NCBI GenBank assembly: GCA_025370845.1
Contig: JAMXFF010000062.1
Location: forward strand, 1-34,150
Source: Laspinema palackyanum D2a
GTDB lineage: Bacteria; Cyanobacteriota; Cyanobacteriia; Cyanobacteriales; Laspinemataceae
Direction: 5' to 3'
DNA length: 34,150 bases
Below, one piece after another: positions 7,663-33,774 of this stretch. The position numbers and the translations under genes were made by a program. The notes below the pieces were generated by a model. That model was not told where the DNA came from and ran no database searches. It saw only the letters and a list, made by a program, of their open reading frames with translations. Within the stretch, counting starts at the first letter, position 1. Each line of letters starts with the position of its first letter.

Positions 7663-8619
7663 TCAAAACTCCAGCTTCTGCACTGCCGCCCGCTTGGTCT
7701 CTTCCCCCCGCCGGTCATAGCGGGTGGTCGTTGTGGGTGAAGAATGACCGGCGAGTTGCTGCACCGTGAAGGGATCGACATCAGCAGCAAGGAGGTCAGT
7801 GCAGAACGTGCGTCTAAAATCATGGGGGGAACAGTGCTCGATTTGAGCGTGGGCCGCCAACTTCCGCACCACTTTGTACACCGTATCTGGAGTCAGCGCC
7901 TTGAGTTGGACTCTCCCAAATCGGTTGACCGGACAAAGCAACGGCCCGGGTTCGCGCCCTCTAACGAATAGCCAACTCTCCACAACCGGGACCAACTTAT
8001 CAGCCAGGTAAACTATCCTATCCTTGTCGCGCTTCCCCGCAATCACTTCGATAATCCCGGTGTCAGGATGGTAATGTTTCAATTGCAGATTAACTAACTC
8101 CTCTCGCCTCATGCCCGTACCGCGCAGGATGACAATCAAGGCCGCATCGCGCAGATTCAGAGGACTGACCGACTTTTGGCACTCATGGAGCATCGCCGCG
8201 AGTTCATCCGAGGCAATCGCCCGACCTTTCAAGTTTTTTTTAGGAACATCAATGCGGGGCAAATCCGCAGCCCGGGCATAGTCTTCATGGGACATTAACC
8301 CCAGCCGCCATGCTTCTTGGAGCGTTCGCCGCAGAGCACAGAGCATCTTGGCGGCAGTGGCGGGAGCCAACCGAGCCAACAAAGCCGAACGAACCGCAGC
8401 GGTGTGGTGGTAGCGCAACTTTGACCAGTCTAGGGTGAGGGCATCGCATGAGCCATTGGTGAGCAGTGCGGCAATGTAGTTGAGTGCTTGCCGCATGGTG
8501 ACTTGTGAAGTTTTGCCCAGACTGGCTAAATAAACCGCAGCCGGTTGTTGCGTGAGGGGGACTGGCTCCAGCAACCGCAACGGCTCGGATTCAAAAATAA
8601 ACTGTTGCAGGTCGTCCAT
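7663..8619 (-). CDS. Tyrosine recombinase / integrase, 318 aa
   Basis: The full catalytic set of the XerC/D-phage integrase family can be read: Arg171 in RGTGMRREELVNLQL, Lys196 or Lys198 in the beta hairpin IAGKRDKDRIVYL, His266 and Arg269 in SPHDFRRTFCTDLL, His292 in LAGHSSPTTTTRYDRRG, and the nucleophile Tyr301. Residues 20-115 form the helical core-binding domain (YLASLGKTSQVTMRQALNYI..). Length is normal and the gene is intact. Such enzymes resolve plasmid multimers or integrate elements. An inverted repeat directly downstream may be its site. Upstream is 330 bp of non-coding DNA, then a divergent RHH-like gene. Confidence 0.9.
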   Translation of the reverse strand: MDDLQQFIFESEPLRLLEPVPLTQQPAAVYLASLGKTSQVTMRQALNYIAALLTNGSCDALTLDWSKLRYHHTAAVRSALLARLAPATAAKMLCALRRTLQEAWRLGLMSHEDYARAADLPRIDVPKKNLKGRAIASDELAAMLHECQKSVSPLNLRDAALIVILRGTGMRREELVNLQLKHYHPDTGIIEVIAGKRDKDRIVYLADKLVPVVESWLFVRGREPGPLLCPVNRFGRVQLKALTPDTVYKVVRKLAAHAQIEHCSPHDFRRTFCTDLLAADVDPFTVQQLAGHSSPTTTTRYDRRGEETKRAAVQKLEF

Positions 8620-10067: not shown

Positions 10068-12860
10068 CTATTCATCCAGAGAACCCTCTGAGTCCTCTGA
10101 TGAATCAATCGGATCTTTGCCACTAACAGCATACTCTTTAGCTAAAGTGGCAAACAGAAACGGAAAGGGCAAAGAAACCTCATCTGCAAAATAGGGCCAG
10201 CGGTCTCTGAGATTATGGATGAAACAAGCCAATTTTTCAGCCTTTATGCTAGGGGAATGAAGCACTGCTATCTCTAGGAATTTTCGGCTTCCAGCAGGTC
10301 GGCTGCCATTATCAAGTCGAGATTCTGACTTGCGTAATAAGTCCTGTTCACTATTGGACGACTTCCTAAGACTGAGGTACAAATCAGTCTCCCCACTATC
10401 ACATACATATGGCCAAGAGAATAAACCTTTAGTTCTAGTGCCGGGAGAACCCTTGACAATACCAACAGGAACTTCGCCGTTGTCTGCAACTCGCAACCGC
10501 GCAAGCCACAAGCGATTTTGTTCTGCTTCTGTCTGAATATGTTGTTTCAGTTCGTTGGGCAAATTGTTGGCGGGTAGTTTGGGGTTTTGTAACCATGTCA
10601 AAATCTTGCGGGCGTTTTGTGCTTCTGCCATGAAAAGTACGTGGGGTAATTCATCATTTTCTACTGAAGTGCTTAAGCAATCGCGCAAGCAATCAGCTAT
10701 GAATTTATTAATAAGCTGCTGTTCGAGCTTTTGTTTATTATTTGAATATTCTTCGCCGCTATCTCCAGTAGCTTCAGAGTGGTAGGTATCCACGTCCCAT
10801 TTTTCAGTAACCAGGGAGCTCAGTCCAACAGGATATGATACCCATCCTTGTGTCAGCCATAAAGAAGGGGTGGTAACTTGTACAATTCCCTTGACTGGAT
10901 TAACTCGCACCATTAATGCCACATTAACAGGTGTGTTGCTCGCTGTTGTTTTGCGAGTACGACGTAGGAGATGAAAGCAAGTCAGCCACAAGTTAGAATT
11001 GGTGATACCATCTTTTTTTACGTCAATTAAAGGTGCAGGCAGAACTCCAAATTGTCGTAACAAATCGGAGACCGCTTTTTGTAATCGGTTACAATCATTT
11101 TTGTTGAGCGATTCTTTCTGTTTTTCTAGGGAAGTTGTCAGGGAATAAATATGTTGATTAACGTAACCGGCTTGCATGGCTCCAATTCTTAATGCCAACT
11201 TCGGATCTGACTCAGGGGGGAAGAAAGATTTCTTGGGTTTTATTTCAATTAATGCCCCGCCTATTCCTTGAACTTTTGGAAGAGATGAGATAATCTGCGA
11301 TACACGCTCATTGATTAAATTAATGCGCCGTTGTTGTGGGGTGTTGCCTTTGACTGATGGATTATCTACATCAAGCCTCTGCGTCAAACCTTGAACGTGC
11401 TGGCTTTTAATCCGCAGAGAACCCAATGAGCCTTCATAGATAGCTTCTTCCCCTTGTATTTCTAAGTTATAAACCTGAGCATCCCCTTTTTGGGACAAGC
11501 CAAGTAAATCACAAATTTCAGCAATGAGCGCATCGCGGCATTGTTTGGTTTCCCACAGAATAAATAGGGTGTGTAACGGGTTTTCAATAGGTCGGAATAG
11601 AGCTTTTCTAGCTATTTCAGGACGGAGCATTGGAGTATCTAAATGCTCCCGGGTTTTGTCTTTTTTGTTTTTCGGCTTTTCTATTTTCCATAATGGATTT
11701 GCTCCACTTAAAACTTTCTGAAATTTTCCGACTCGCTGAAGAGCGGAATTTCCCTTGACCAATTTATTTTGAATGGCTTCATCCAAACTCGATAAATCTT
11801 GCGGACTTATCCCGCGAAGGCAAGGGAGTTTTCCCCAGGTCGTATGGTAAGATATTGCTACCTGCATTCCGCAGGGTTCTTCTCCAAAACTGGACCATTG
11901 ATATTGGGGTTCAAAAGCTAAGTTGTGAGGTTCAGGAAGTAAAGAATCGTTAATTTTTAGAAGCTCATTAATGGCTCTTGACCATCTGGGGTTTCTCCCA
12001 TTTTGTGTCATGACTTGCTTGATTCGTAGAGGCATAAAACAGAAAGGCTGGCGAATCCCATCTAACCACCGACGATTATCCCCAATATAGGCAGTAGCAC
12101 CTTTATAGGGGAATTTCGAGAAAGGCTCAACAATCCACTGCCGGATTGAAAGTTGATGGTAAATCATAGGCTCTTTGCGCCAAGGAACTGTTTGCAGTTT
12201 GAAACGAATAACAAAGGAGATATGGGCTGTACCGACTTGTTGATTTCTCTCAATCAGCGAAACGGGATGAGGAGGCCATGACATCAATTCAGAACCTTGA
12301 TTGATGCTAACCACTCGGTAGAAGGTAAGTTCATACTGATTGTTAACCCCAAAGCCAACTTGGGGATTTTTAAGAAATTCAGTCGCTAGGTAATCTGGAA
12401 TAGCTTGGAAGCGCATATCCCCGTAGGGGGTCTCTGGGGGATGCAGCAGAGAATAAGTTTGGGGAGCTTCCCAATGCCAAGCACTATGATCTAGCTGTTC
12501 GAGAATCGACTCGACTTCCTCCTCTCCCAAACAGTCGCTAAACTCTTCTCGCAGCCAATCTTTAATGAATTCAGGCAAGTCTGATAGGTCCGCAGTTTCT
12601 GTGGCAAACACCCAAGGTACACCCGGACGTTGCCAGCCTTGACGCGCTGTCTGGATAATTTTCGGGAAGCTAGCAGCTATAATCGGATCAAGAGAGCTGC
12701 TTGGTACAGACGGATAGCCTTTACCAAGCAGCTTGACGCGCTTTTGTGCCAGAGATTTAGCAACTTGCTGCCACGCCGTAGGAACCTGAAGGGAAAAGAG
12801 AGTGTATTGCAGTTCTTTGGTGATTTTCCAGGCTCCAGGGAGGATTGTTTTAAATGTCAT
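10068..12860 (-). CDS. pPIWI_RE-family prokaryotic Argonaute-like protein, 930 aa
   Basis: Third gene of the operon. The C-terminal half has the marks of the pPIWI_RE RNase H-like module: GGALIEIKP at 534-542 with Glu539, then SDPKLALRIGAMQAGYVNQH at 551-570 with the conserved DPKxAxR and Arg558. The family is named for this Arg and Glu. Further on are LARLRVADNGEVPVG (786-800), LFSWPYVCDSGETDLYLSL (813-831) and HNLRDRWPYFADEVSLPFPF (882-901), followed by a helix ending in LAKEYAV, as in the PIWI C-terminus. The N-terminal 400 residues should be the family-specific X/MID-like region. Such proteins are predicted to bind guide nucleic acid or R-loops in defence against invading DNA. The ATG overlaps the helicase gene by 11 bases. 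Length is normal and the gene is intact. Confidence 0.85.
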   Translation of the reverse strand: MTFKTILPGAWKITKELQYTLFSLQVPTAWQQVAKSLAQKRVKLLGKGYPSVPSSSLDPIIAASFPKIIQTARQGWQRPGVPWVFATETADLSDLPEFIKDWLREEFSDCLGEEEVESILEQLDHSAWHWEAPQTYSLLHPPETPYGDMRFQAIPDYLATEFLKNPQVGFGVNNQYELTFYRVVSINQGSELMSWPPHPVSLIERNQQVGTAHISFVIRFKLQTVPWRKEPMIYHQLSIRQWIVEPFSKFPYKGATAYIGDNRRWLDGIRQPFCFMPLRIKQVMTQNGRNPRWSRAINELLKINDSLLPEPHNLAFEPQYQWSSFGEEPCGMQVAISYHTTWGKLPCLRGISPQDLSSLDEAIQNKLVKGNSALQRVGKFQKVLSGANPLWKIEKPKNKKDKTREHLDTPMLRPEIARKALFRPIENPLHTLFILWETKQCRDALIAEICDLLGLSQKGDAQVYNLEIQGEEAIYEGSLGSLRIKSQHVQGLTQRLDVDNPSVKGNTPQQRRINLINERVSQIISSLPKVQGIGGALIEIKPKKSFFPPESDPKLALRIGAMQAGYVNQHIYSLTTSLEKQKESLNKNDCNRLQKAVSDLLRQFGVLPAPLIDVKKDGITNSNLWLTCFHLLRRTRKTTASNTPVNVALMVRVNPVKGIVQVTTPSLWLTQGWVSYPVGLSSLVTEKWDVDTYHSEATGDSGEEYSNNKQKLEQQLINKFIADCLRDCLSTSVENDELPHVLFMAEAQNARKILTWLQNPKLPANNLPNELKQHIQTEAEQNRLWLARLRVADNGEVPVGIVKGSPGTRTKGLFSWPYVCDSGETDLYLSLRKSSNSEQDLLRKSESRLDNGSRPAGSRKFLEIAVLHSPSIKAEKLACFIHNLRDRWPYFADEVSLPFPFLFATLAKEYAVSGKDPIDSSEDSEGSLDE

Positions 12861-15800
12861 AGCGTAATTCCTTTGTGTGTTTTAGTGCAGTAAAAAAAGC
12901 TCCATAAAGCGCAAGCGCTAAGGTTCTATCGCTCGGTCGTTTTTCTTCTCCCTCAACCGAAAGTTGAAGATTTTTGATAATTCCTACTAAAAGTGATGTA
13001 GCTTGACTGTCTAATTCACCTTCAGCGGATCGGGGTGCAAACTTGACGTCCAAAAAATGAACAATACAAGGGACGCCTCCTCGTACTAACCGTCCAATGA
13101 TTTGCCAAATACTAACTAATTGACTCCAGCAAAGCACACCTCTTTCCTCATCATTTAACTGCGGAAAAGACATGGCACGACAGCTCAGGTCAAGCATCTT
13201 GGCCACTGCATACTTGTAAACCTCATCCTCCATGTTTACTAGGTTAAGAAGGTCTCCGCGCCGTTGAATTGGTTCGTAGAGAGCAGAATTAGAAATGTTT
13301 TCTAGCGCCCAATTGTTAAGTTGCTGGACGGTAGTTTGCCAATCATCGGGGGTGGGCATAGGTCTACATAAGAATACTGCTGCACCAAATGCAGCTATTT
13401 GGCTATCGTTGAGAATGTTATGACCTCGCTCTAAGGCCATTAAAGGTGCTACTACAATCTGGGTAGGGAGTTGATTCAGATCTCGAATTTTACCCCGGCG
13501 AATTCCACTCAAATGAGTGGGAGCATTATCGCGACGAAGAACTTTAATTTTTTCAAGATTCTCAACTCGATAAACCCGGTTTAAAACCGACTCAACTAAC
13601 TCTGCTTCATCATAACTATTGGTAATAAAGAGGACCCTCTCTCGCTGACCCCAGCGCTGTGGGTCAATCTGTCCTTTTTTGTTTAATTCCTCCAATAATT
13701 CATCGAGAAAACTCTTAGCTTGTCCAGGTCTATTACAGATAGCCTTAACCATTTCTTCAGCATTATTTTTCCGCACAGCAGGAGGTTGTCCTGATAGAGC
13801 GATGTACCTCCCTGCGCTCTGTTGCGGTCTAAAGAAAAACTCGCTGTCGTCAATTCCCGCATCACCTGCTCTGTCATTAGTTGGCGCTGGTTCTAGTAAG
13901 ACTGTAGGTTTTTTCTGAATGTGATAAGTTGGAGTACCCGGAGCATAGCTCGTGCCTGAAATCAGCACTGTATGGGGACCCTCCCAACCGTCAACAGCCC
14001 AAAGAGTGGGAAAATTGAGAAGCAAGAAGCGACCCACCCCAACATAACGAAAATACTCCAATTTCCCACCTTTTTTGCTGCCGCGATCTGGTGTATATTT
14101 AAAACCCAAAATATTACCTACTGGGGCAGATGGTAGAACCGGCAGGTAGTCGCGAGGCGGGCGATACACTAGGGAAAGGCTGGTGTCGTGCAAATCAATA
14201 ATGCCGGTCCGCATTAAAGCACTTAAATGGTCAACCAGAAAAGCTAACCGATTCGTCAGCACTGCTACGAGAATGGCAAAATACAAATGGCCTTTTACCT
14301 CCTCAAACTTACTTTCGGTGACATAAATTCCCGAGGATTCAAGCCACTTATTTAGCCAATCCGCCACATCATCTAATGCTACTCGCTCGTTTTCTGCACT
14401 TAATAGGGTAAAAGCCAGATCCGAAAGTTCACCTCCCTTGCGTCGGTTGAGGGGAGCTTGCAAAAAATTCTCTACGGTCTGCAATAGCTGTTTGCGCCGC
14501 TGACGTTCCTTTTCTGGTGGTAACCCCGCTTCAATCCGTTTTATCCGTTGTTGGCTGCTTTCTTTGCGGGTTAGTTTAGTGTTGGGTTTCTGTAGATCTG
14601 TGTCTGGTAGAGTTTCGAGGAGATCCCGGATAATGTGGGAAAATACGGAACGGCCAGTGAAGGGATTTGAACCTAACCATTCAACCAGTTTGGGTTGACT
14701 GTGCAGTTTGGGCAGAATAATGTCAGTTGCAATTTGAGCATAGTCGTTTGCTTTTTTTGCAACAGCAACTAATTCAGCCCCCATCCGGCGTCGGTCGGAA
14801 TTATAAATTGCTGTAGCAAATTTGAGTCCCAGTTTATTTAATAATGAGTTTCCTGAAGAATCAACTAATACTTCATCAGGAGCAAAGGCTTCATCAAATT
14901 GCACCTGTACCCGGTCTGCTTCGTCAATAAATAAAAAATTACATTCACGGTAAACGGCTTCAGCAAACGTAAGTTTTTCATCAAAAACTTGGCGGGGTAC
15001 GCGGCTATGAATGAAACTAGCCGTCGTTAATACCCACACTAAAGATTCCGCGATGTCTCGTTCCAAATCGTGGCGCGGGCATTGGTAATAAAAAGGGCAA
15101 GTATATTTATCTTCAGTCTCGCCTTCCTCCCAGTCTTTTAATTTTTTTGAGTCTCTCTCCAATGCCTCTTTAGTTTCTGTGACTTTTTGATAAAGGTTGT
15201 GGCAGGGTTCTGAACCAAATTCCCAATTATCCTCTGATTGGACTAAAGCAAGCAACGGACAGACAGGGCTAAACCACCGCCATGCTGGATGAACAGCACC
15301 TTGTTCAATTTCCTCCCCCTGTGTTGCTAAAATTGGTTCGTAGACTTTTTCTAATTGTTGTGAACGCTCACTCCCCAGTATAGGAGTAGCACGAACTCCT
15401 AGTCCATGCCAAAAGAGGGAGGCGAGGCGCACGGCTGCCACCACATCATTGACGATTAAGGCACAGCGATATCCTTGCTTGGCAAAATGGTAAATCAGAA
15501 TTTCAAGAAGGGTAGATTTGCCAACATTTAATAAGCCCACAATATGTACGAGTTGATTTATTTCCAGTTCCACCCCGGGATGAAAATCATCCCTAATTTC
15601 GTCATAAAGACGTAAGGAAATCCCTTGAAGTCGGGTATAATAATTTTCGGAATTGCACCCGGATTTAGCCAGAGAAGTATCCATTTCTTGGGCTGAAATC
15701 TGTAATTCCTCTAAGGTAATAGTCTGGGACGCATTCTCCGGAGTGCGCGTGCGTTGAAAAACCACCTGTGGTGAGGATGGAAGATGAGAAATAGTTGGGG

Positions 15801-16371
15801 GAATATTAATAGGTACTTCAAGATTTGCACGTCCCTGGTGGGAAACTTTAGCATACCAATACCCTGGCTCTGCTAGCTGAATTTTTTCTTTTTTGTGGGG
15901 TGGCGGGGACAATAGAGTTTGACGATATAGTTGCCAGCGGTTGGGATAGGTACTGGAGGGAATTAATTGGGGCGGCTCATTAATTTCTGTTAAACTGTAG
16001 ATTCTCAAAATCTCAGGGATTTTGATATATTCATTGAGCGACCGCTCCCATTGATTGCCTTTACGTCGCACGAGATAAAAACGGGCTGTTTGTACCCGTC
16101 TCCAGTTGTCATCATCTTGCAAAGTTGCAATGGGAAAGCGATACCCTGAAAGTAAAGCTGAAACGGCTTTGGCCGCTTCTTCTGGGGATATATCTTTCAA
16201 TAAGGTTAGCCCTAACTCTACTTCAGTAATCAATTGAGCCAAGCGTTCAACTTCTCGCTTTTGGGATTGGCTATCAGCCCCGGTCTGGATGTCTGATACA
16301 TAAGATTTTAAGTCATCAGATTCTCGCAGCGCTTTCCGCACTTGTTTTCCCCAGTTTGACAGATCACGCAT
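12850..16371 (-). CDS. DinG/XPD-like Fe-S superfamily 2 helicase of the pPIWI_RE system, 1173 aa
   Basis: The start at 16371 (MRDLSNWGKQ) is preferred over 16416 because ATGCGTGA overlaps the stop of the upstream gene. Residues 1-270 form an N-terminal region typical of these helicases (pPIWI_RE-specific domain). Walker A is LVHIVGLLNVGKSTLLE (274-290; Lys285), unusually GLLNVGKS. Four Cys at 371, 390, 425 and 431 (CPLL, EPCHN, YTCPFYYQCP) lie where DinG/XPD enzymes hold a 4Fe-4S cluster. FLFIDEADRVQVQ (479-491) is the DEAD box. Late motifs are APLMALERGHNI and WQIIGRLVRGG (motif VI). It is expected to unwind DNA or R-loops for the Argonaute-like partner. Overlaps of 8 and 11 bases couple it to both neighbours. 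Confidence 0.85.
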   Translation of the reverse strand: MRDLSNWGKQVRKALRESDDLKSYVSDIQTGADSQSQKREVERLAQLITEVELGLTLLKDISPEEAAKAVSALLSGYRFPIATLQDDDNWRRVQTARFYLVRRKGNQWERSLNEYIKIPEILRIYSLTEINEPPQLIPSSTYPNRWQLYRQTLLSPPPHKKEKIQLAEPGYWYAKVSHQGRANLEVPINIPPTISHLPSSPQVVFQRTRTPENASQTITLEELQISAQEMDTSLAKSGCNSENYYTRLQGISLRLYDEIRDDFHPGVELEINQLVHIVGLLNVGKSTLLEILIYHFAKQGYRCALIVNDVVAAVRLASLFWHGLGVRATPILGSERSQQLEKVYEPILATQGEEIEQGAVHPAWRWFSPVCPLLALVQSEDNWEFGSEPCHNLYQKVTETKEALERDSKKLKDWEEGETEDKYTCPFYYQCPRHDLERDIAESLVWVLTTASFIHSRVPRQVFDEKLTFAEAVYRECNFLFIDEADRVQVQFDEAFAPDEVLVDSSGNSLLNKLGLKFATAIYNSDRRRMGAELVAVAKKANDYAQIATDIILPKLHSQPKLVEWLGSNPFTGRSVFSHIIRDLLETLPDTDLQKPNTKLTRKESSQQRIKRIEAGLPPEKERQRRKQLLQTVENFLQAPLNRRKGGELSDLAFTLLSAENERVALDDVADWLNKWLESSGIYVTESKFEEVKGHLYFAILVAVLTNRLAFLVDHLSALMRTGIIDLHDTSLSLVYRPPRDYLPVLPSAPVGNILGFKYTPDRGSKKGGKLEYFRYVGVGRFLLLNFPTLWAVDGWEGPHTVLISGTSYAPGTPTYHIQKKPTVLLEPAPTNDRAGDAGIDDSEFFFRPQQSAGRYIALSGQPPAVRKNNAEEMVKAICNRPGQAKSFLDELLEELNKKGQIDPQRWGQRERVLFITNSYDEAELVESVLNRVYRVENLEKIKVLRRDNAPTHLSGIRRGKIRDLNQLPTQIVVAPLMALERGHNILNDSQIAAFGAAVFLCRPMPTPDDWQTTVQQLNNWALENISNSALYEPIQRRGDLLNLVNMEDEVYKYAVAKMLDLSCRAMSFPQLNDEERGVLCWSQLVSIWQIIGRLVRGGVPCIVHFLDVKFAPRSAEGELDSQATSLLVGIIKNLQLSVEGEEKRPSDRTLALALYGAFFTALKHTKELRYDI

Positions 16372-17677
16372 TGTGTTTTTTCTCCAAAGTTTGTTTTGCT
16401 TTAGCAATGATTTCACTCATTAACCTCAAGCGGATACCGCCCAAGTTGGGTTCAATTTGTTGCCGGACTACTTTAATTCTAAGTGCTGGTTCTCGCTCAT
16501 CAGGAAAAACGATAAATGTTTCTGTTGCATTGGGGCGGTACTGCACTTTCTGCAACCGCTCCTCATCCAGATAGGACCAATCTTTAACATCAATAGCCCA
16601 CCGGACTTTTTTGCTGAATTCTACCAGCAAGTCAAATTCGTCAATCTCGGGCCACAGAGTAACGCGGATGCCCATTTTGGTAAGAGTTTCTGCTAATTTA
16701 ATTTCTGAAATTCCCGGGATTGTCCCGTACTGATGTACGCCTAGGGTTACAGCTTTCCAAGTTTCGGCTTCATGTTTAGGAATTGGTGGCTGGGGAGGGA
16801 GATGAAGTTTGGCACTCTCGCGCTCGCAGGTTAAGTTTCGACAGGTATAGGTTTCATCTTGTCCTCGGCGCATTAGATATTTGCAGCGAGGGCAAAAATG
16901 ATAGTTTTTTTCTTCGGCTAAATCGACTAAATCAATATAGGTTTTTAGTAAAAATTCGCGCAAGGGTTTTAGTTGGGGCAGAGACAGGGAGCGACGGTAT
17001 TCTGGGTAGGGGAGGACAGGATGTTCAATAATCAATTTCCGGAAAGCGCGATAGGCTTCTTCTAGTTGATGCCCTCGGCAATGTTCAAGAACATCTTGCA
17101 AGATTTTCTCCTGCACCTGATTTTTTACGTCGTTACCTGTAACTTGCCACTGTTCGGCAAATTCGGAAACTAATCCGTCTTCAATGAGGGTGATATCCGG
17201 TGACAGATGTTTAATTTCTGCGGCGGGTTTCCACTCGACTACTGAATTTTTTGCCCAGTCAAAAAATTCAGGGATGTTTGAGGGTGCTGTTTTATCTCCT
17301 TGCAGTAGGGATGTTAGGTACATTCGGGACATCCCGATGCGGAGTGCTTCTGGAATATGCGCTCTCTCCTTTTGGTCCCGCTTTTCCCACTCTGCCAGTC
17401 CTGTTGCTAGATACCGTAAGGTTTCTGGTATAGCTATCTGCGGTCTGGGTTCAACTTCTGGATCCCCTGCAAGTAGACGCAGACTGCGGGCGGCATTATC
17501 TTCCCATTCCACGTCAATGCCTCGCATGGTCTGCAACCAGCGTTGCAGTGTTGCTTTCTGGCGAGGTTGCATTCCCAGTTCTACGCACAATTCTTCTAAG
17601 GTTGGTCCCTCTTTGTGAATACGAAACCACTCTTGCAGGGCCTCTAGAATTTTGGGTCGATGTCTGGTGACTTTCAC
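16364..17677 (-). CDS. pPIWI_RE-associated restriction-endonuclease-fold protein with wHTH and zinc ribbon, 437 aa
   Basis: First gene of the operon. It starts with GTG at 17677, seven bases after AGGAGG. Residues 5-65 resemble the LexA-type winged helix (PKILEALQEWFRIHKEGPTL, then EELCVELGM...LQTMRGIDVEW). Residues 260-286 are a zinc ribbon with Cys262, 265, 279 and 284 (FCPRCKYLM, TYTCRNLTCE). Residues 335-400 are a restriction-endonuclease fold: EIDEFDLLVEF with Asp349, then WAIDVKDW with Asp363-x-Lys365, the D...(D/E)xK metal site. In the pPIWI_RE triad this gene supplies DNA cleavage. The wHTH may let it also bind its own promoter. It is intact. Confidence 0.8.
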   Translation of the reverse strand: MKVTRHRPKILEALQEWFRIHKEGPTLEELCVELGMQPRQKATLQRWLQTMRGIDVEWEDNAARSLRLLAGDPEVEPRPQIAIPETLRYLATGLAEWEKRDQKERAHIPEALRIGMSRMYLTSLLQGDKTAPSNIPEFFDWAKNSVVEWKPAAEIKHLSPDITLIEDGLVSEFAEQWQVTGNDVKNQVQEKILQDVLEHCRGHQLEEAYRAFRKLIIEHPVLPYPEYRRSLSLPQLKPLREFLLKTYIDLVDLAEEKNYHFCPRCKYLMRRGQDETYTCRNLTCERESAKLHLPPQPPIPKHEAETWKAVTLGVHQYGTIPGISEIKLAETLTKMGIRVTLWPEIDEFDLLVEFSKKVRWAIDVKDWSYLDEERLQKVQYRPNATETFIVFPDEREPALRIKVVRQQIEPNLGGIRLRLMSEIIAKAKQTLEKKHNA

Positions 17678-17709: not shown

Positions 17710-17779
17710 ATTCTCACGCCCCCATCACCAGAATGTCAAGAAAATTTTTCCATGTTTCCGCAATGTTTCCGATGTTTCC
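17710..17779 (-). promoter_or_regulatory. Promoter and repeat operator of the pPIWI_RE operon
   Basis: On the minus strand a consensus -35 TTGACA (17739-17734) is followed after 18 bases by GAGAAT (17715-17710), placing the start about 25 bases before the GTG. Directly upstream are three GGAAACAT repeats (17779-17772, 17770-17763, 17759-17752), centred 9 and 11 bases apart. Such an array looks like a protein-binding site; the first gene's wHTH or a host factor is a candidate. Confidence 0.6.
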
Positions 17780-18465: not shown

Positions 18466-19173
18466 CTACAACTCTCCTAACGGTTCCCCATTCAAAATGT
18501 CCCGGCATTGCCGCCAGCGAGGTAGATATTTGTCCATATAGGCTTTAAAGCGTTCGTTATGATGGCGTTTCAAAAAATGAACTTTCCTCATGCACCACCA
18601 CATACTCCAGGCATTCTACCGGCTTTTTTGCCAACTCTAAATTCAACCAAATCCGATGCTGGTTTATATTACAACTTCCCCATTTGGTCTTCATTTTTTC
18701 ACCCCCCAATCGGCGACATGATGCCCGATTATTGGCTGCCACTTCTCTAATAAATCAGGGATTCTGGCTCTAAGTTGAGCGCGATAGCATTCGGTTAAAA
18801 CTAATGCCCTATTTTGAGGTAAAATCCCCGAGTTGACGAATAGCTGAAGGGTTTTAGGGGGAAGTAAGGCTATTTCGTGACGCCCCTGACGTTCGATGAC
18901 GAATAGCCGATACCGATCGCCAAATACATAATGACTTTCCCCAGAAACCATTTCTCGCTTGGACTGGCGGGGTTGGGCTTCAAAGTTGGCTCGTTGTTTC
19001 TTAATCCAGCACAGCCGGGAAATGACCGCCAGCCGAATGTTATCCTCGCTGAGGTGCAACGGTGCAGCAACCCGAACATGACCATGAGGCGGATAAACCC
19101 CTACATGGAGGTTTTTGATAGGTTTTCTGACAATTTGGATGGGTAGTGGTGGTAAGGAATTTAGGGTGGCAAT
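18466..19173 (-). pseudogene. Decayed DUF45/YgjP-type zinc metalloprotease
   Basis: Fragments cover the whole family: IKNLHVGVYPP and HVRVAAPLHLSEDNIRLAVI at the start, REMVSGESHYVFGDRYRLFV in the middle, VADWGVKK, then KMKTKWGSCN and RIWLNLELAKKPVECLEYVV, and finally RHHNERFKAYMDKYL...DILNGEPLGEL to a TAG at 18466. One A is missing from the homopolymer between WGVKK and MKTKWG, shifting the frame. A second shift lies right after the His-Glu of the HExxH zinc site (VVVHE, then seven bases instead of six before the next His codon). The expected start codon near 19173 reads ATT. The enzyme cannot be made. An intact relative would be a SprT/M48-like peptidase. Confidence 0.7.
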
Positions 19174-19182
19174 AGGGGTAGA

Positions 19183-19203
19183 GATTCTTGATTCTTGATT
19201 CTT
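19183..19203. repeat. Heptamer tandem repeat (GATTCTT)3
   Basis: Three perfect head-to-tail copies of GATTCTT just upstream of the decayed protease gene. Short heptamer tandem repeats are typical of filamentous cyanobacteria. Confidence 0.7.
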
Positions 19204-19319
19204 TAATATAATTGTCTAAGCCACTTTTGGATGGGCAGCTTGTTATCTGCCTCGGTGAGGATAAGGGGCAGGGGTGGCAAGGATTGACTAGGCGATCGGC
19301 CCAACCAATTCCAGTGCCA

Positions 19320-19607
19320 CTAAAAATCGAAGGATAGCTGACCGGGCGGGATGTTTGACTGCTTGCGGTTGTGGTAGGACAAGTGACAACTGGTGCAGAG
19401 TGCAATCAGATTTTCGGGGCGGTTGTCTTCGGGCATCCGGTTATGGTGGTGCACGGTCAGGGTGATTTTGGTCCGTTCTGATTTGGTCAGGTGTTTGGTG
19501 GGGTCTCCGGGGCGGAGGCACTGGCACCTACATTTAGAGCAACGCCATCCCGCTTGGTCCTTGATGGTTAGAGCGATTTGCTGCCAGTCTTTGGAGTATC
19601 GTGACAT
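19320..19607 (-). CDS. HNH endonuclease, 95 aa
   Basis: The N-terminal part has two Cys pairs forming a zinc knuckle (CSKCRCQC) after a Trp-containing helix (WQQIALTIKDQAGWR). Then LTVHHHNRMPEDNRPENLIA, LCTSCHLSYHNR give the HNH core: His-His, Asn, then CxxCHxxYH. Length is normal for a stand-alone HNH nuclease of the McrA-like/5-methylcytosine-type group. Such genes occur as homing nucleases or defence accessories. It lies between a dead protease gene and the restriction-modification cassette with no operon partner. The gene is intact and ends in QLSFDF. Confidence 0.8.
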   Translation of the reverse strand: MSRYSKDWQQIALTIKDQAGWRCSKCRCQCLRPGDPTKHLTKSERTKITLTVHHHNRMPEDNRPENLIALCTSCHLSYHNRKQSNIPPGQLSFDF

Positions 19608-20403: not shown

Positions 20404-21570
20404 CTATTCCTTCAAATAGATTTCTTGAATCTTGGATTCGGGCATAGAGCAGGGATCATCATAGCCGTGCCGTTGAGCCACAGAGCGAATGATTCCTTTA
20501 TAGGTTCTGCCACCGCGATCGGCAGGATGGTCCGAACATCCGCCCTCCTTTCCCAGAGTCCAGTCATAGGCAGCGGTGAAACCTGTTGACAGGCTTGAGG
20601 ATGGCCGAGGAGGAAGTTTCCCTGTAAGGGTTTGATGCAGAGACCAAAGCTCTGGCGGTTGAGCGCTTGATTTTGTCCCATCGGGTCTTGATTCCCAGTG
20701 AAGGTGAGGCCCTGTGCTTGCCCCTGTGTTTCCAGTTTTTCCAAAGGGTTGGCCGGGTTGATATTCACCAGGGCTGCACTTACTCAGGTGCATACTTGAC
20801 TTTTTTTTAGTGGTTATAGATTTTTTATTAGTTTGTTTGGGTTTACTAACTTCTTCTTCTGTTTGTTGGTTAGTTTTATCTTTATCTTTATAATGGTGTT
20901 TTAAATCAACCCAAAGATGTCTCAAATCAAATGGCGTAGGTTGAATGTGTTCACGCTCTAATTTTTGGTCTAGTTTTGTGATATCGGGTTGTTCACCATC
21001 AGAAGATATAGTAATATTAGGTAATAACTCAGATGCAGCATTAGTATTAACTTCCTCCAAAATAGTTTGCAATTCCATATCTTGGATATAGCCAATCATT
21101 GCACCTGAGTGTGATGATTTACCGTAGCTCCATTCAGGATCAACGAAACGCTTCATGCCATTAACCACATAGTTTTTGTTAAGTATCCATGTGGTGCTTG
21201 ATGGAGAACCTAGTCGCTTGGATTCAATAATATAAAATTTGTCCCTTCTATTAGGGTCAAGTTCGTTAGTATCACATACACCCCATTGAAAGTCTGGACG
21301 TTTAGATTCTCTTGGACTTCGAGTTACATCATCTGCATCTGGTTGGTTATTTGATTCATAAGTAATAGGCCACTCAATACCTTGATTTTGAGTTTGTAAA
21401 TCCCCGTTTGCGCGACGTACAAGAAAATATAATTTCCGATTTATTTCATCTTCCTTATCTGGAAGTGAAGATTCTTCACGGAGCATTTTTAAAGCTAGTT
21501 TAAATATTTCCAATACTCTTTTTTCATGTCTAGTCCATATATCTTCTCTTTGCCTACTAATACGAATCAT
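20404..21570 (-). CDS. PD-(D/E)XK restriction endonuclease fused to a truncated M23-GH108 endolysin, 388 aa
   Basis: Residues 1-255 are AT-rich in codon use, like the adjoining methylase gene, and contain PDFQWGV (Asp93) and KFYIIESKRLG (Glu116-x-Lys118), the metal site of PD-(D/E)XK nucleases. They end in a Lys/Thr-rich linker. From Met260 the sequence changes abruptly to GC-rich: MHLSKCSPGEYQPGQPFGKT, GNTGASTGPHLHWE is the C-terminal half of an M23 (LytM) peptidase with its HLH zinc ligands. From about 330 YDWTLGKEGGCSDHPADRGG followed by RTYKGI is the start of a GH108 muramidase (catalytic Glu342). TAG ends the frame at 20404. The M23 N-terminal half is missing. The start overlaps the methylase gene by 14 bases. 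Confidence 0.7.
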   Translation of the reverse strand: MIRISRQREDIWTRHEKRVLEIFKLALKMLREESSLPDKEDEINRKLYFLVRRANGDLQTQNQGIEWPITYESNNQPDADDVTRSPRESKRPDFQWGVCDTNELDPNRRDKFYIIESKRLGSPSSTTWILNKNYVVNGMKRFVDPEWSYGKSSHSGAMIGYIQDMELQTILEEVNTNAASELLPNITISSDGEQPDITKLDQKLEREHIQPTPFDLRHLWVDLKHHYKDKDKTNQQTEEEVSKPKQTNKKSITTKKKSSMHLSKCSPGEYQPGQPFGKTGNTGASTGPHLHWESRPDGTKSSAQPPELWSLHQTLTGKLPPRPSSSLSTGFTAAYDWTLGKEGGCSDHPADRGGRTYKGIIRSVAQRHGYDDPCSMPESKIQEIYLKE

Positions 21571-24500
21571 AATACCTCACCCCATCACTTTGAGTAGTTT
21601 CTTGTAAGTGAATTGCTTGTAGCAACGTAGCTTCAGCATCTTCACGAGCCATACTACGAGTCCACAACCGCATTTCATTACGCTTAATGATAATAATTTG
21701 AGTATCGTTAACTACACGAATCATACCATCAATATAAATTTGATGACTATCATAAGGACCTAAATTATGTTTACCAATACTTCCTAATATTTCTTTCCAT
21801 TCATCTTCGCTAGAACTAGAACGGTCTGGTAGAGAAATATTTTTCTCTTGAGTTGAAAATACAACAGCTAACATACTTGAATTGGTTTCAGCATCAATAA
21901 CTTTCCAATTAAACTCACCATCAGGTTGGAGTTCACGATTCCAAATATTGAGAAAGGTGTAAATATAGCTTTGAATATGATTTTGATTACCACGTATATT
22001 GGAAATATCTGAAATAGTACCTTGCAATTTTGGAAGAGATTTTATATTTAAAGATTGCACAGCCTGACTATTACTGTGGTTGTAGAAAAATTCTATTCCA
22101 ACATCACACATATCTCTGATTAGGTCACGTTCTGATATATTTAACTCATATAAATCAAATATTGCTTCATCTAAGCTATACTCTAAATCTGTTAGTTGAT
22201 TATTTACTTGATTCCAATTTTGTAGTTCTTCAACAATCTGAATAATTCGCTCACGCAGATTATTATCTGTAGGTAAAGTAATTGGGAGATTTAAATATTC
22301 ATTCTTATAAATTCCATCATGCCATATACCCCATTTACTGGAAGTCAGAAAAAAGTAATAACGTGGTAATGAAGACCACAAAATTCCCAGAATAACTTTA
22401 TATTTCCACGTTTCTGGTTGAATTAATTTAATGCAGTTGATTGAATTAGTGAAGCAGAATTTAGCTGATTCCATTCGAGCTATAATCTGCCCTTTTTTAT
22501 CTGAAGATTGAGTAATACCATGCTTGATAAGCAATCTATCTCCTTGATAGAAGGTTGGTTTACCTTTTCGCTTAACTTCTGTAGGTGGTTCTATAAATGA
22601 ATCGGGGTTAATATTTCCATACTTAGTAAAATTATCTCTTACTGGTAATTGTTTATATTCAAGTAACCACTTTGAAGGTTTTCTCTCTTGAATGCTTTTA
22701 GTAAAACCCTGTCCACTATTATCTGGATCATGCAAAACTCTTAGAGGAGTATATAAATTTATAGCCGATATCATGGCTACATCTTTATGATTACCCCACC
22801 AGTAAATTTTCCAAAGAGTATCATTACGCAAAAAGTCTGCCTGTCTTACTACATGACGATCAACAACACTCAAAACAACTGCTTGAAGTTCTTTAACCAT
22901 TGCAGTTTTTTTAGCTGACCAGTACAAAACATAGTTTTTATGAGCTTGTACTTCACTTTTCTTGCAAAATAAAACCGAGGCAAAGGGAGCAATTGCAGAA
23001 GCTGTCCTTCGTCCACGAAAAAAAACATCTCTGACATGAGCAAAGTTAATAACTTCCTTAAGTTCAACTTTTTTTAACCACTCTTTCCTAAAAGCTTGAC
23101 TTTTTGTGTGTGTCTTTAACAAAACACCTGTAGATACTAAAAGAGATGCCCAACCATTATCATGAAGTAATTCAAGCACTCTCCAAATAAAAGCCTGGGA
23201 TCTTTCATTATCCCCAACTGGGTATTCATGGGTTTCACACCATTTAGCTATTTTATTCCATCCAGTTGGACTTGAACCCCAAGGAGGATTACCAACTACT
23301 ACATCAGCACAATTACTATTAAACCTTTTAAATATTTCATTATTATTTTTTATTGCTGAAGTAATATCAAAAATATTTGCTCTAAGCAAATTATTAAAAT
23401 GCTGTTTATCATCACTCCACCCATCTTGGTAAATAAGATTGGGTAGATGTTTTCCATTTTTAATTTGTTTAAGTATATTCGGAGCTTCCTGATAGTGAAT
23501 AAGAGCAAGATACAAACTAAATGATGTTATGCGTATAGCTTCTTCGTTAATTTCAATGCCTGCAATTTGATTGCGTAAAATCTCTCTCATTTTCTCTGGA
23601 TTTAACCGCAGTTCATTATTTTTATACACATGATGGCGAATTATGCGTCTGAAGGATTCAACTAAAAATATTCCTGATCCACAACAAGGATCAATAACAC
23701 GAGGATTTGTATCTAAGCGTTCTGGATTTAGAACTTTGGACAGAAGATATTCTACTAACGAACCAGGTGTATAATGCGTACCAAAATCATCCGATTCTTC
23801 ATTTTCTTCATGATAAAATTCTTCATAAATACTGCTAATTAAAGAAATAGGTATAATTTGGAATTTATAAGCCCAGAAGAATAATGGTTTTGCCGAAGAC
23901 CCTAAATCTCCTCTTAAAAACATTTGTAAAAGTTTGAGATGATCTGCTGTAATTGCCTGTTCCTCTTGAAGATCAGAGGGAAACATATCTCCATTAAAAT
24001 CATTAGCTAGTCTTTCAAAAAGTGCATAGGTAAAATCTTTATTTCCTAGAATTCTGATATAAAATTGTTTAGCTTCAGGCTCAAGATTAAGTGGTAGGAA
24101 GTCTGGGGCATTTAGTAAATTTTGCCATTCTGGATTTTTTTGTGCTATTTCATCAAAATACTCCCGCGAGAGTATTTCTCTATCTTCTAAATATCTAATA
24201 AAAATTGATCTACCTATAAGGGAATGAGCATATTTTAATTTATCTTTTCTAAGCCCTTTATCCATGAGAGCAAAACGGACTCTCTTAAGATCCTGAATTA
24301 AAGATTGATCAGCCCGTTGGTTGTCTGTCCCAAAACGCTGATCTTCAAATAATCTACCAGACTCTATTTGCTCACGCCTATATTGATATAATTTTGATGC
24401 TACCTCGGCTGTAGTTCTAGCAACAGCCAATGATTCTTTGTCTTGCCACTCTTTAATAGTTTTAGATGGAGGCTTAGTTAAATCATAAACAGCAAGTTCA

Positions 24501-24811
24501 CCTTGTTTTGCTAAAAATAAATAGTGAGGTCTTGCCATGCACCAAATTTTATTAAAAACACGACGCAAAACTTCATCATCTTCAGTTTCTTCTACACCAG
24601 CAAAAACAATTATGGGATTATTATTAACAAAAAAAATCTTTTCTACCCCGACTTGCTTACCTAAAGATAGCCAATCTCCTTTTTCGATCCATTGTTCCAG
24701 CGTCAAGTTAGTAGGAGGAATATCTGTAGCAAGAAGCTCACCCTCTTGAAAATTGAGAGTTGAGTAAGCAGCTTCTAAAAGTTCACGAACAGAGTTCAGA
24801 CCTACAACCAT
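21557..24811 (-). CDS. Eco57I-class N6-adenine DNA methyltransferase of a type II-like restriction-modification system, 1084 aa
   Basis: Motif X/target region FGTHYTPGSLVEYLL (343-357) is followed by motif I VIDPCCGSGIFLVESF (372-387), the acidic loop AGIEINEEAIRITSFSLYLA (417-436), and motif IV ADVVVGNPPWGS (502-513). This is the gamma-type m6A order of Eco57I-like enzymes. Residues 1-340 form a long helical region; 640-1000 contain the recognition region and a coiled segment (LRERIIQIVEELQNWNQVNN). The gene is clearly AT-rich compared with its neighbours and no GCGATCGC was seen in it, which suggests recent transfer. A nuclease gene follows with a 14-base overlap. Whether this protein itself also cuts DNA is not visible. 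Confidence 0.8.
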   Translation of the reverse strand: MVVGLNSVRELLEAAYSTLNFQEGELLATDIPPTNLTLEQWIEKGDWLSLGKQVGVEKIFFVNNNPIIVFAGVEETEDDEVLRRVFNKIWCMARPHYLFLAKQGELAVYDLTKPPSKTIKEWQDKESLAVARTTAEVASKLYQYRREQIESGRLFEDQRFGTDNQRADQSLIQDLKRVRFALMDKGLRKDKLKYAHSLIGRSIFIRYLEDREILSREYFDEIAQKNPEWQNLLNAPDFLPLNLEPEAKQFYIRILGNKDFTYALFERLANDFNGDMFPSDLQEEQAITADHLKLLQMFLRGDLGSSAKPLFFWAYKFQIIPISLISSIYEEFYHEENEESDDFGTHYTPGSLVEYLLSKVLNPERLDTNPRVIDPCCGSGIFLVESFRRIIRHHVYKNNELRLNPEKMREILRNQIAGIEINEEAIRITSFSLYLALIHYQEAPNILKQIKNGKHLPNLIYQDGWSDDKQHFNNLLRANIFDITSAIKNNNEIFKRFNSNCADVVVGNPPWGSSPTGWNKIAKWCETHEYPVGDNERSQAFIWRVLELLHDNGWASLLVSTGVLLKTHTKSQAFRKEWLKKVELKEVINFAHVRDVFFRGRRTASAIAPFASVLFCKKSEVQAHKNYVLYWSAKKTAMVKELQAVVLSVVDRHVVRQADFLRNDTLWKIYWWGNHKDVAMISAINLYTPLRVLHDPDNSGQGFTKSIQERKPSKWLLEYKQLPVRDNFTKYGNINPDSFIEPPTEVKRKGKPTFYQGDRLLIKHGITQSSDKKGQIIARMESAKFCFTNSINCIKLIQPETWKYKVILGILWSSLPRYYFFLTSSKWGIWHDGIYKNEYLNLPITLPTDNNLRERIIQIVEELQNWNQVNNQLTDLEYSLDEAIFDLYELNISERDLIRDMCDVGIEFFYNHSNSQAVQSLNIKSLPKLQGTISDISNIRGNQNHIQSYIYTFLNIWNRELQPDGEFNWKVIDAETNSSMLAVVFSTQEKNISLPDRSSSSEDEWKEILGSIGKHNLGPYDSHQIYIDGMIRVVNDTQIIIIKRNEMRLWTRSMAREDAEATLLQAIHLQETTQSDGVRYYDSY

Positions 24812-26011: not shown

Positions 26012-29000
26012 TCAGTCACCGGCGGGGGAATTGGTGGCGGAGTTGATGTCCTCCTCGGGTTGGTCACTTCCGAGGGAATCGCTGGGAGAATTGATGCCCT
26101 CGAACGATTGCTCCCCGGCGGCAAAATTGATGGGGTTTTCTTCATCAGAGGCGATCGCTCTGCCCTCCTCGGGTTGTTCACCGGCGGGGGAATCGTTGCC
26201 CTCGAAGGGTCGCTCACCGGCAGGGGAATTAGTGGCGGATTCGACTCCCTCCGGTTGTTCCACGACACGGGAATCAGTGGGGTTTTGTCTAGTGGAGGCG
26301 ATCGCCATGTCCTCCTGGGGTTGTTCACCGGCGGGGGAATTGGTGGGGTTTTGTCTAGTGGAGGCGATCGCCATGTCCTCCTGGGGTTGTTCACCGGCGG
26401 GGGAATCGATACCCTCCCCTTCTTTTCGGGGGGACTGATCTCTCCTTCCTGATCCACCCCCTACATAAATAGATCTATTTATAGGGGGGGTGGATCGGCC
26501 CCACTCTTCACCCGGGGTTGGATCAGGAGGGACTGGATCACTCGCTGCTGGATCACCACCCGCTAGATCACTCCCCGGAGAATCCGAAGACTTCAACACC
26601 TCGCGGTCCACCCAAAGATCAAAAACAGTCCAGCGCTCATCCTGGGGAGGAACGAATCGGTAGAAGCGTTTGACCCCTTCAGGAGTACGGCGACGGGAAC
26701 TTGTCAGATTGAGGTCCATCAAACCCAGAAGCTGCTGACAAGTTTGCATCGCACTCACACCGGGATTAATCTTGACTCCCAAACAATCCTTAATCGACTG
26801 GCGACCTGATCGCGCCAGGGTAACAATCCCTTGCACCTCCGGCGAATCCGCAGTAAACTCCTTCTCCGGGTCTAGCAACCGCTTCACCCCAAGAAATTCC
26901 AACATCCTCGCCTTCACCGAACGGCATTTGATATCCGGCAGATGAAGGAGTGGGCGAGACAGCAGATGCTCCAAATCTCGCCTATCCTGAGACTCCGCAA
27001 ACTTGGCAAACAAGAGATAGAAATTCAAGCGCCATTGTTTGTGACGGCCCTCATCATGCTTCTTAATTAGCACAGGGGTCAACTCCTCAATCCCGCCAAA
27101 GTCTTGCACGATGCGATAGCGCTCACACTGGTACTGCTCGGCCTCCGTTTTCTGAGCCTTTTTATCCAACTCCCTGAACGTTTCCGGCTCGATTTCCAAA
27201 GCATCAGCCCGTTGTATGCAGTGGTCCGCCCAATTTTTATCCCGAGCTATCTTCGCCGAATCGGAGATAGCTTTGGCTCCCTCTTTATCCAGTGAATCAA
27301 CCGGAATGACCCGCACCCCCTCCGATTCAAACAGAGAGATAGCCGTCTCTCGGTAGCGATAACAATCCCGGTTAAAGCGGGCTACTTGTTTGGTCCAAGT
27401 GCGGAAGCATACTGGGTCGTAGGCTTTATCAATATTGAAATCTACCTCCTGAAGAATTCTCATCAATGCCGAAACTTGTCGGTTTTTGCCCGCCCTAATC
27501 TTCCGGTAGTCACTCGACCCATTAGCGATGGGTTTCGCAATTTTGGGGATAAACAAATGCCGGTCTACCCCCGCGCGCACTCGGTCAAGTCGCTGCCGAT
27601 ATTCTCGGACGCTGTTGAGTCCAGCGGAAATGTCGCAAACAGCAATCCATCGCTCAGTCTCATGTAGGCTGACCGCGCTGCTGATTGAGGTGGAACTCAA
27701 CATCACATCACAGTCACGCGCTAACTCATTAATGCGTTCGATGTCTGCATCCGAGTTGTCAGTCCCGAGAATTTGCTGGTCAAACCGTTTGATGCGGATG
27801 CCAGGAAACTCCTCCTTAAGCATCCGCTCAATCGTCTTCGTTCCCCATTTTGATTTAGTTTGTGCCCCCTCTACGCTGAACCAGAGACACTTATCCTGGG
27901 GCTTAGATTTCAGGATTTCAACCGCTTTGTTATAGATGTCAGCGGGTCCGTTATAGAGGTAAGCATTGTATTTATGCTCATGCTGGAACTCATTGACCAC
28001 CACAAACGGCCTGATGGGGCATTGCAACGAATCTTCGTCGTCACAGGCTTCCCGGGCGATCGCCATCAAAAACTCAACATCTAAATCGCTGATGTCGGCG
28101 CTTATGGCTACTACTAACCCATTGGACCGGACTAAGACATCTTGGATGAGGCTCTTAAACGTGGTGATAATCCAACCGCGATCTCCTCGACAAGTTGACC
28201 CTCCTAACATTTGCTGCAAGGTTTGGTCAAACTCGTCAAGAATCACAATCCCATCTAACCACTCAGAGGGCAGTTTTTCATGTCCCAGTTCAGTTTGGCG
28301 GACCCGGGTCACCTGGGGTGAGGCTTTACCGAAGGGTTTCACCGATTCAACACAGCAGGCGAAACCATAGACTGAATCTCTAACCCCCTCGCCGTCGTCA
28401 ATATATTGCACCCCAAAGCGAGCGGCTAACTCCCGTCCGGTGGATTTGCGGTTGGTGATAATCAGACATCGTGACCCCTGTTCAATCAGGGGGACCATCT
28501 GATCCCGGATGTGGTCCGTTTTCCCGGTGCCGGTGGTCGCCTTCACGATTCTCAATCCTGAATAGGGAAGCCCTTCAATATCGCCCAGATAGCGGCGATT
28601 GACCAAGATATCTGGCTCGTAGGTGAACTCCCAGGGATTGTAAGGATAGAGGGACTCACTAGAGAATTCGCACCCTTCTAGGTCATCATCCCCAGTTTGG
28701 ACAAAGTAATCATCGAGACCGCATTTTTCACCGTCGGGGGAAGGGATGCGGATGAAGTCAACGATCGCCCCTTCCTTTCTCAGCAGATAAGCCAGGGTGT
28801 TCGAGGCTTTTCCAACGGCTCTTTGAGTTTTGAGTTTGGGGTCAAAGTCAAACCCAATATGAATCCTACGCCCCTTCAGCCCGATCGCCAAAAGGTCAGG
28901 GTGCAGTTTATCTTTGTCGCTGGGGTCCCGGAACATCCAGACCCCACCCAACCCGATCGCGGCGTGACCTCGGGAAAGACAGGCGGCATCTTTTTTAGCC

Positions 29001-31392: not shown

Positions 31393-31728
31393 TTATCCGA
31401 CTGAGTATTCAGTGAATTGCCGTTTAAAGGGGGAGTGAAACCCAATGACAATATCAGAATTGGGTACCCCCATTTTAACTAATTGTTCAGCCAACGAGTC
31501 TTCAGTACCATTATATTGAATCCAAATTTTACCGTCTTCAATGTCAAAGTGCATCACCGGACCAAATACCCGCTTATCTCCCTCCCAACCTACATAATTT
31601 AACTGATAGTGGTCATTTTCACTATCAAAAATAAGCTGGGTTTTTACCGCGTCCGCATTCCCAGAAAGTTGGGCGTGTTCCCGCAAAATTTGCTTGACAA
31701 TTTGTCGATACCGTGCTAATTTATCCAT
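31393..31728 (-). CDS. xisI: XisI family protein, 111 aa
   Basis: MDKLARYRQIVKQILREHAQ, then DSENDHYQLNYVGWEGDKRV, FGPVMHFDIEDGKIWIQYNG, and VPNSDIVIGFHSPFKRQFTE are the signature of XisI (fdxN element excision controlling factor): the N-terminal helix, D..xxHYQLxxVGW, IDIKDGKIWIQ-x-(D/N)-x-T, and IVLGFxxPxxR. Length is normal (about 110). It overlaps xisH by 13 bases. In Anabaena XisI with XisH is needed for XisF-driven excision of the fdxN element, but most cyanobacterial copies lie away from any excision element and have unknown roles. Confidence 0.9.
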   Translation of the reverse strand: MDKLARYRQIVKQILREHAQLSGNADAVKTQLIFDSENDHYQLNYVGWEGDKRVFGPVMHFDIEDGKIWIQYNGTEDSLAEQLVKMGVPNSDIVIGFHSPFKRQFTEYSVG

Positions 31729-32132
31729 GACCGAATCTCCTCTAATTTAGGGTCATAAACCACTAACTTAACCTGATAACGTTTTAAGGTTCTTTGGATG
31801 AAAGGAAGTTGAAAAAAATCATAATAGGTGTCAACGGGAATGGCTAAATACACCAATCGGTCCGGTTCTTGTTCTTCCAGGGCTTGACAATAGTTAAGAT
31901 ATTGTCCTAACGCGGTATGAAAACTACTAATATCAGAATCACCGATAAAACTTTTGATTTCCACAGCAATTTTATCCGACCCCCGTTCTGCTGCGAACGC
32001 AATTTCTGCCGCCAAATCAATTTGTAATTTTACGGCTTCACTAATCCGAATCGTTAAGGGGTCATGAGTAATATTCCATCCCTCTTTAATCAAAGCATTT
32101 TTAACCTGCTGATGAAAAACATCTCTAGCCAT
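31716..32132 (-). CDS. xisH: XisH family protein, PD-(D/E)XK-like fold, 138 aa
   Basis: MARDVFHQQVKNALIKEGWN, ITHDPLTIRI, LQIDLAAEIAFAAERGSDKI, AVEIKSFIGDSDISSFHTAL, GQYLNYCQALEEQEPDRLVY match XisH across its length. The residues Asp in IDLAAE and Glu-x-Lys in VEIKSF form the restriction-endonuclease-like core. The xisHI order and overlap are the usual ones. The region upstream carries heptamer repeats and a hairpin (32185-32290) that could affect expression. The gene is intact. Confidence 0.9.
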   Translation of the reverse strand: MARDVFHQQVKNALIKEGWNITHDPLTIRISEAVKLQIDLAAEIAFAAERGSDKIAVEIKSFIGDSDISSFHTALGQYLNYCQALEEQEPDRLVYLAIPVDTYYDFFQLPFIQRTLKRYQVKLVVYDPKLEEIRSWIN

Positions 32133-33765: not shown

Positions 33766-33774
33766 CGGGGCTTC

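Follow-up and report, generated by a model that had tools for sequence, protein, structure and literature searches.

Hardly any experimental work on pPIWI_RE systems, which were predicted in 2013, appears in the literature that we surveyed. Do the three genes at positions 10068–17677 of a contig of the cyanobacterium Laspinema palackyanum D2a (JAMXFF010000062.1, 34,150 bases, hereafter "the window") form an intact system of this kind, which of their products is likely to cut DNA, and how might their expression be controlled? The window locus is an intact pPIWI_RE triad by sequence, a member of the family already described by Burroughs, Iyer and Aravind (2013; PMC3702460) and named Ppr in PADLOC. 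What this analysis adds is a conserved, clade-matched candidate control site. It also corrects two details of an earlier sequence-only reading of the locus, namely the identity of the PIWI signature residues and the idea that the PIWI subunit is a nuclease, which it probably is not.

Gene layout and domain content of the triad

The triad consists of three adjoining minus-strand open reading frames (ORFs) with zero internal stops. The first (16364–17677) encodes a restriction endonuclease (REase) subunit of 437 amino acids, in which a LexA-like winged helix (residues 1–70) is followed by domain Y, a zinc ribbon (262–284) and a PD-(D/E)XK nuclease domain (322–434); the second (12850–16371) encodes a DinG-type iron-sulfur (Fe-S) helicase of superfamily 2 with an N-terminal domain Z; and the third (10068–12860) encodes the pPIWI_RE protein of 930 amino acids, whose domain X, MID domain (478–610) and RNase H-like PIWI lobe (627–912) were assigned from Pfam, PADLOC, an alignment of 84 PIWIs, a structure model and Foldseek. 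All six pPIWI_RE Pfam models (pPIWI_RE_X, MID_pPIWI_RE, RNaseH_pPIWI_RE, pPIWI_RE_Z, pPIWI_RE_Y and pPIWI_RE_REase) matched above their cut-offs in hidden Markov model searches, the PIWI protein scoring 246.4 bits with PF13111, 86.5 bits with PF18157 and 142.2 bits with PF13032, and PADLOC assigns the names PprPIWI, PprDinG and PprRE. The order REase, helicase, PIWI on one strand recurs in all 85 loci that have the three genes. With ratios of nonsynonymous to synonymous substitution rates (dN/dS) of 0.13–0.22 against four relatives, the window triad is, at the level of its codons, under purifying selection.

The Fe-S DinG-like helicase proposed from the bare sequence was borne out by matches to pPIWI_RE_Z (PF18155, above cut-off) and PprDinG (488 bits). 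As listed, its ORF opens with a GTG and spans 12850–16416; M16 and R17 of this frame hardly vary across 19 aligned sequences, so translation probably begins at the ATG at 16371, giving 1173 amino acids and an overlap of 8 bases with the REase gene. The overlaps of 8 bases (REase/helicase) and 11 bases (helicase/PIWI) claimed earlier thus agree with the ORF coordinates. The Walker A Lys, the DE box, both motif VI Arg residues and the Fe-S cysteines C386, C405, C440 and C446 are present in 79/79 helicases of 1000 amino acids or more, a conservation that is partly due to selection, since the scanned contigs of relatives (the best 80 of 156) were picked by a helicase motif.

The REase subunit had likewise been read as a winged helix-turn-helix (HTH), zinc-ribbon and restriction-fold protein, in agreement with its matches to PF18156 and PF18154, with the LexA-type winged-helix fold of the N terminus in the structure model, and with the zinc-ribbon cysteines 262, 265, 279 and 284, which are kept in 84–85 of 85 REases. 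All four nuclease residues (E325, D349, D363 and K365, abbreviated EDDK) are found in 74/85 REases, the window protein included. The 11 REases lacking them are all actinobacterial (L100, L103, L105, L106, L107, L109, L110, L112, L116, L122 and L129), and eight of these share DRQY in place of EDDK; the PIWIs of the same 11 triads are also without the Asp of RNase H strand 1 (see below), so that these triads, to judge by their residues, may do no more than bind and unwind DNA, with neither the PIWI nor the REase subunit cutting. A separate oddity concerns the REases of the MerR-like clade (L018, L049, L088, L089, L091, L093 and L126), where 7/7 genes have no ATG, GTG or TTG between the in-frame stop and the start of the HTH; the region reads ATT or GTT, GAG GAA AAA, pointing either to an odd start codon or to a frame artefact.

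A candidate operator that differs between HTH types

Upstream of the REase gene lie a sigma-70-like promoter (TTGACA-18-GAGAAT, 17710–17739, minus strand; 10/12 consensus matches) and a candidate operator of three direct repeats GGAAACAT (17752–17779, minus strand) with spacers of 1 and 3 nucleotides, which ends 12 nucleotides upstream of the TTGACA. The array was not found in any of 100 shuffles and occurs once in the genome of the window (7.4 Mb in 116 contigs). We then compared 86 REase genes, of which 30 were labelled LexA-like and 56 other by pattern, with one of the latter (L056) reassigned to the LexA-like type by N-terminal alignment. On this count the array is present in 30/31 loci with a LexA-like REase, the one without it (L074) having hardly any DNA upstream of the gene, and is absent at 5 or fewer mismatches from all 55 genes with other N termini (L019 matches at 6). 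Across 30 LexA-like loci, mean pairwise identity is 0.84 within the array, against 0.26–0.36 in the DNA upstream of it and 0.49–0.58 on the promoter side, and at 12 nucleotides from the array the loci carry TTGAC in 27 cases, TGGAC in one and neither in two. Among 386 cyanobacterial genomes the exact GGAAACAT pattern was found in two, that of the window and that of the L022 locus, each time immediately upstream of a LexA-like pPIWI_RE operon; an exact pattern misses diverged true copies, as a near-identical one recovered 19/146 loci.

Other REase types appear to be accompanied by other sites. For the clade to which the genome's second pPIWI_RE system belongs, the exact pattern of the palindrome TTTACATCATTTAnTGTAAACA was seen in 5/7 aligned loci and not in the same-clade locus L138, and it occurs once in the Laspinema genome (C48:89357–89378), while the direct repeats TGCATAGG are seen in 5/7 aligned loci of the MerR-like clade. 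The MerR domain PF00376 was matched in L018 with an expectation value of 3e-12, and MerR_1 weakly (0.017–0.066) in 4/5 members of the second system's clade. No shared upstream site was seen in the four loci with an HTH-less REase, and the Streptomyces groups are uninformative because their upstream DNA is conserved throughout.

Candidate sites that change with HTH type are expected under autoregulation by the REase, and the pattern of sites suggests that this subunit may regulate its own operon through the candidate GGAAACAT operator. Two points speak for a rival reading, in which the HTH directs cutting to particular sequences and the array is bound by another factor or serves as a self-marking site: Burroughs 2013 offered autoregulation and sequence specificity as alternative functions of the HTH, and the array lies upstream of the −35 element, so that its geometry alone is no proof of repression. 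We consider this rival unlikely, since the array forms a single site in each genome searched, keeps an almost constant distance to the promoter of the very operon that encodes the HTH, and varies with HTH type. Among the papers listed by our literature searches, with full texts covered in part, a conserved clade-matched control site was not found in print, nor was PIWI-RE mentioned together with an operator. If autoregulation is correct, it would settle for fused HTH domains the choice that Burroughs 2013 left between autoregulation and sequence-specific restriction, and the copy described here offers concrete objects for a test, a 28-bp site and an 80-residue domain.

Proposed role and the PIWI subunit

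An anti-invader activity of pPIWI_RE was predicted by Burroughs 2013. For the window triad we lean, if only slightly, towards guided destruction of plasmid or phage DNA, with the REase subunit autoregulating its operon. The PIWI subunit would bind a short guide and, without cutting, recognise an R-loop or invader DNA complementary to that guide; it would then load the DinG-type helicase, which would unwind the target and so expose it to the nuclease subunit. The latter's winged helix would bind the GGAAACAT repeats and control transcription of its own operon, by repression or activation, so that a dangerous nuclease would be made only when wanted.

The distribution of the system bears on this proposal. 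PF13032 was found in 12/386 cyanobacterial genomes and in 11/39 closer relatives (the genome of the window counted in both), the relatives of the window being cyanobacteria. Translated searches (tblastn) of plasmids returned 6 records for the PIWI protein, four of them at 55–62% identity over 98% of the query, and 23 for the helicase; 0 phage records matched. That the window contig is plasmid DNA is well supported by its gene content: a CyRepA1 plasmid replication protein (26012–29533, minus strand) matches NCBIfam NF042913 with 232.9 bits against a cut-off of 200. This stops short of proof, because the contig is not closed; a search for an exact terminal overlap of 20–1999 bases found none. 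The same genome also harbours a second pPIWI_RE triad of another clade (L016:4341–11963), comprising a REase of 503 amino acids, a helicase of 1153 amino acids and a PIWI gene running to the end of contig C48, which ends inside the triad; the remaining PIWI part stands at the start of contig C110 (L017:68–685), and the two pieces were kept apart.

A different function is suggested by work on Pseudomonas stutzeri, in which deletion of piwi-re lowered ciprofloxacin survival about 15-fold and produced filaments (PMC10991935), and by the action of DinG-type helicases on R-loops (PMC3702460). Both points speak for a triad that mainly serves replication or repair of host or plasmid DNA by clearing R-loops or stalled forks. 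In our judgement this is improbable, as the patchy spread, the carriage on plasmids, the presence of two different versions in one genome and the several broken copies better fit an accessory defence system.

The non-cutting PIWI of the proposed scheme departs from the sequence-only reading, which held that all catalytic motifs are present. This is true of the helicase motifs and of the REase EDDK but not of the PIWI subunit, where His630 stands at the probable first catalytic position and no Asp occurs in RNase H strand 1. The predicted RNase H-like fold itself is there: the structure model of the PIWI subunit shows an Argonaute fold, and its MID region is conserved in the alignment. Our comparison set comprised the 84 PIWIs longer than 780 amino acids among 109 ORF hits, leaving out L040, L044, L045 and L046 as repeats of L079, L065, L064 and L066, and retaining the truncated PIWI of the second system. 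None of the 84, the window protein included, has an Asp at positions 626–632, and ten further plasmid copies have none at column 630; the second acid, at position 746, is D or E in 58/84 and Glu in the window. The equivalence of H630 with D525 of PsPIWI-RE is drawn from the model and from spacing. Column 654 (Asn in the window, Asp in 2/84, L099 and L102) was also tried as the first catalytic position, since some plasmid copies carry Asp at this column, and dropped: the model puts strand 1 at 624–634, and the spacing between column 630 and the second acid is 82–91 in compact members, matching the 525–610 spacing of PsPIWI-RE, with 94–123 in others and 116 in the window. On either mapping the window PIWI is without the first Asp, and from its residues and model it is probably cleavage-dead. 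With the strand-1 Asp gone and the helicase and REase residues kept, the roles in this copy are predicted to be split between a dead PIWI that holds the guide and a live helicase and nuclease, the REase being the cutter.

A PIWI subunit that still cuts, through another acidic set such as E746 plus other residues, appears very doubtful to us. The acid retained at the second position speaks for it, as do the activity of PsPIWI-RE (Huang 2022) and some distant plasmid copies with Asp at columns 654 and 746 (both are found in one of the 84, L102); these are outweighed by the lack of any Asp at 626–632 in the whole set, by the Asn of the window at 654 and by the requirement for D525 in PsPIWI-RE (Huang 2022).

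The residues that define the pPIWI_RE group also needed reassignment. E539 (LIEI) and R558 (DPKLALR), originally taken for the signature pair, are conserved (77/84 and 81/84) but both fall inside the MID domain, where they may aid in holding the guide. More probably the signature Arg and Glu are R790 and E863, each kept in 81/84 PIWIs and placed by the model on strands 784–791 and 861–868. According to Burroughs 2013, the signature R and E sit on a sheet extension of the RNase H fold, and in PsPIWI-RE numbering the pair is R639 and E718, C-terminal to D525 and D610 (Huang 2022); R790 and E863 fit this arrangement because both follow the second RNase H acid. This mapping uses residue order, conservation and rough spacing rather than a direct alignment with PsPIWI-RE: the second acid and the Arg are 44 residues apart in the window PIWI and 29 in PsPIWI-RE, the Arg and the Glu 73 and 79. 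Sequence searches of the Protein Data Bank with the PIWI and REase proteins gave no relatives, or short matches to unrelated proteins.

Finally, that the triad is a functionless, decaying remnant is hardly credible: several of the related copies seem to be damaged (e.g. L048, L067 and L121) and the genome's second system is interrupted at a contig end, but in the window all three genes are full length with low dN/dS and the promoter array is intact.

Contig context and comparison with known systems

Several other features of the contig deserve mention. A Type IIG-like restriction-methylation protein (21557–24811) adjoins a protein (20404–21570) that matches GH108 and, below threshold, M23, and together with the triad these genes look like a defence region. 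A tyrosine recombinase lies at 7663–8619 and a XisH and XisI pair at 31393–32132; the Aulosira laxa plasmid (L136) likewise has an annotated XisH/XisI-like pair close to its triad. Two short ORFs (18691–19059 and 19040–19405) were read and left out of the analysis. No transfer RNAs were found, nor any Rfam RNAs near the operon, the sole Rfam match in the window being a HEARO RNA (RF02033, 147.6 bits) at 33743–33958, near the contig end; it is followed by an ORF starting at 33980 and cut by the end at 34150, which resembles IscB. Farther afield, two plasmids encode giant proteins of 3100 amino acids (L151:3024–12326, Bradyrhizobium elkanii pS15H) and 3394 amino acids (L152:4738–14922, Microvirga pMVF16-3), with the pPIWI_RE module at the start and, far downstream of it, a domain of the AAA_22 ATPase type. 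An AAA-family gene comes next, and both operons have a WYL-domain gene beside them.

In its six Pfam domains, gene order, gene overlaps, HTH–REase fusion and Fe-S DinG-type helicase, the window triad equals the pPIWI_RE islands of Burroughs, Iyer and Aravind (2013), and nothing places it outside that family. To the family picture we add the mapped operator candidate and the finding that the strand-1 Asp is missing throughout the aligned PIWIs; Burroughs 2013 had noted that only a subset retains the PIWI catalytic residues. PsPIWI-RE (Pseudomonas stutzeri, PMC10991935) belongs to the same family, yet it has the catalytic residues D525 and D610 and cuts, whereas the window PIWI has H630 and E746 at the positions that should correspond to them. 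For the N terminus of the REase, the closest comparison is the DNA-binding domain of the LexA repressor, which has a like winged-helix fold.

The DdmDE plasmid-removal system, in which the catalytically inactive DdmE recruits the helicase-nuclease DdmD, offers a likeness in how the parts may work: an inactive Argonaute-like sensor, a superfamily 2 helicase and a PD-(D/E)XK nuclease. We follow the naming of PMC12409362; PMC12904381 exchanges the two names. The REase model (part of domain Y, the zinc ribbon and the nuclease) fits residues 924–1190 of DdmD, its C-terminal part, while a search for a sequence relation between the two found none. DdmD unites helicase and nuclease in one chain and the window triad encodes them in two separate genes; moreover, DdmE is described as a long prokaryotic Argonaute, not a PIWI-RE protein, and was not among the 50 structural matches listed for the window PIWI, an absence from a list and not a dedicated test. 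In the part of the literature searched, a single paper mentions both PIWI-RE and DdmDE, in two passages, one a classification and the other a reference.

It is nonetheless tempting to speculate, at a confidence somewhat short of even, that pPIWI_RE triads correspond to DdmDE in split form: a guided PIWI unable to cut would load a helicase and a separate nuclease resembling the tail of DdmD, and the nuclease would double as transcription factor of its operon. HTH type and operator would have been swapped as a unit during evolution, the LexA-like type pairing with direct repeats of GGAAACAT and the MerR-like type with a palindrome or other repeats, which would let two triads share a cell without cross-talk. 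If true, this would tie the pPIWI_RE family to the recently solved mechanism of DdmDE.

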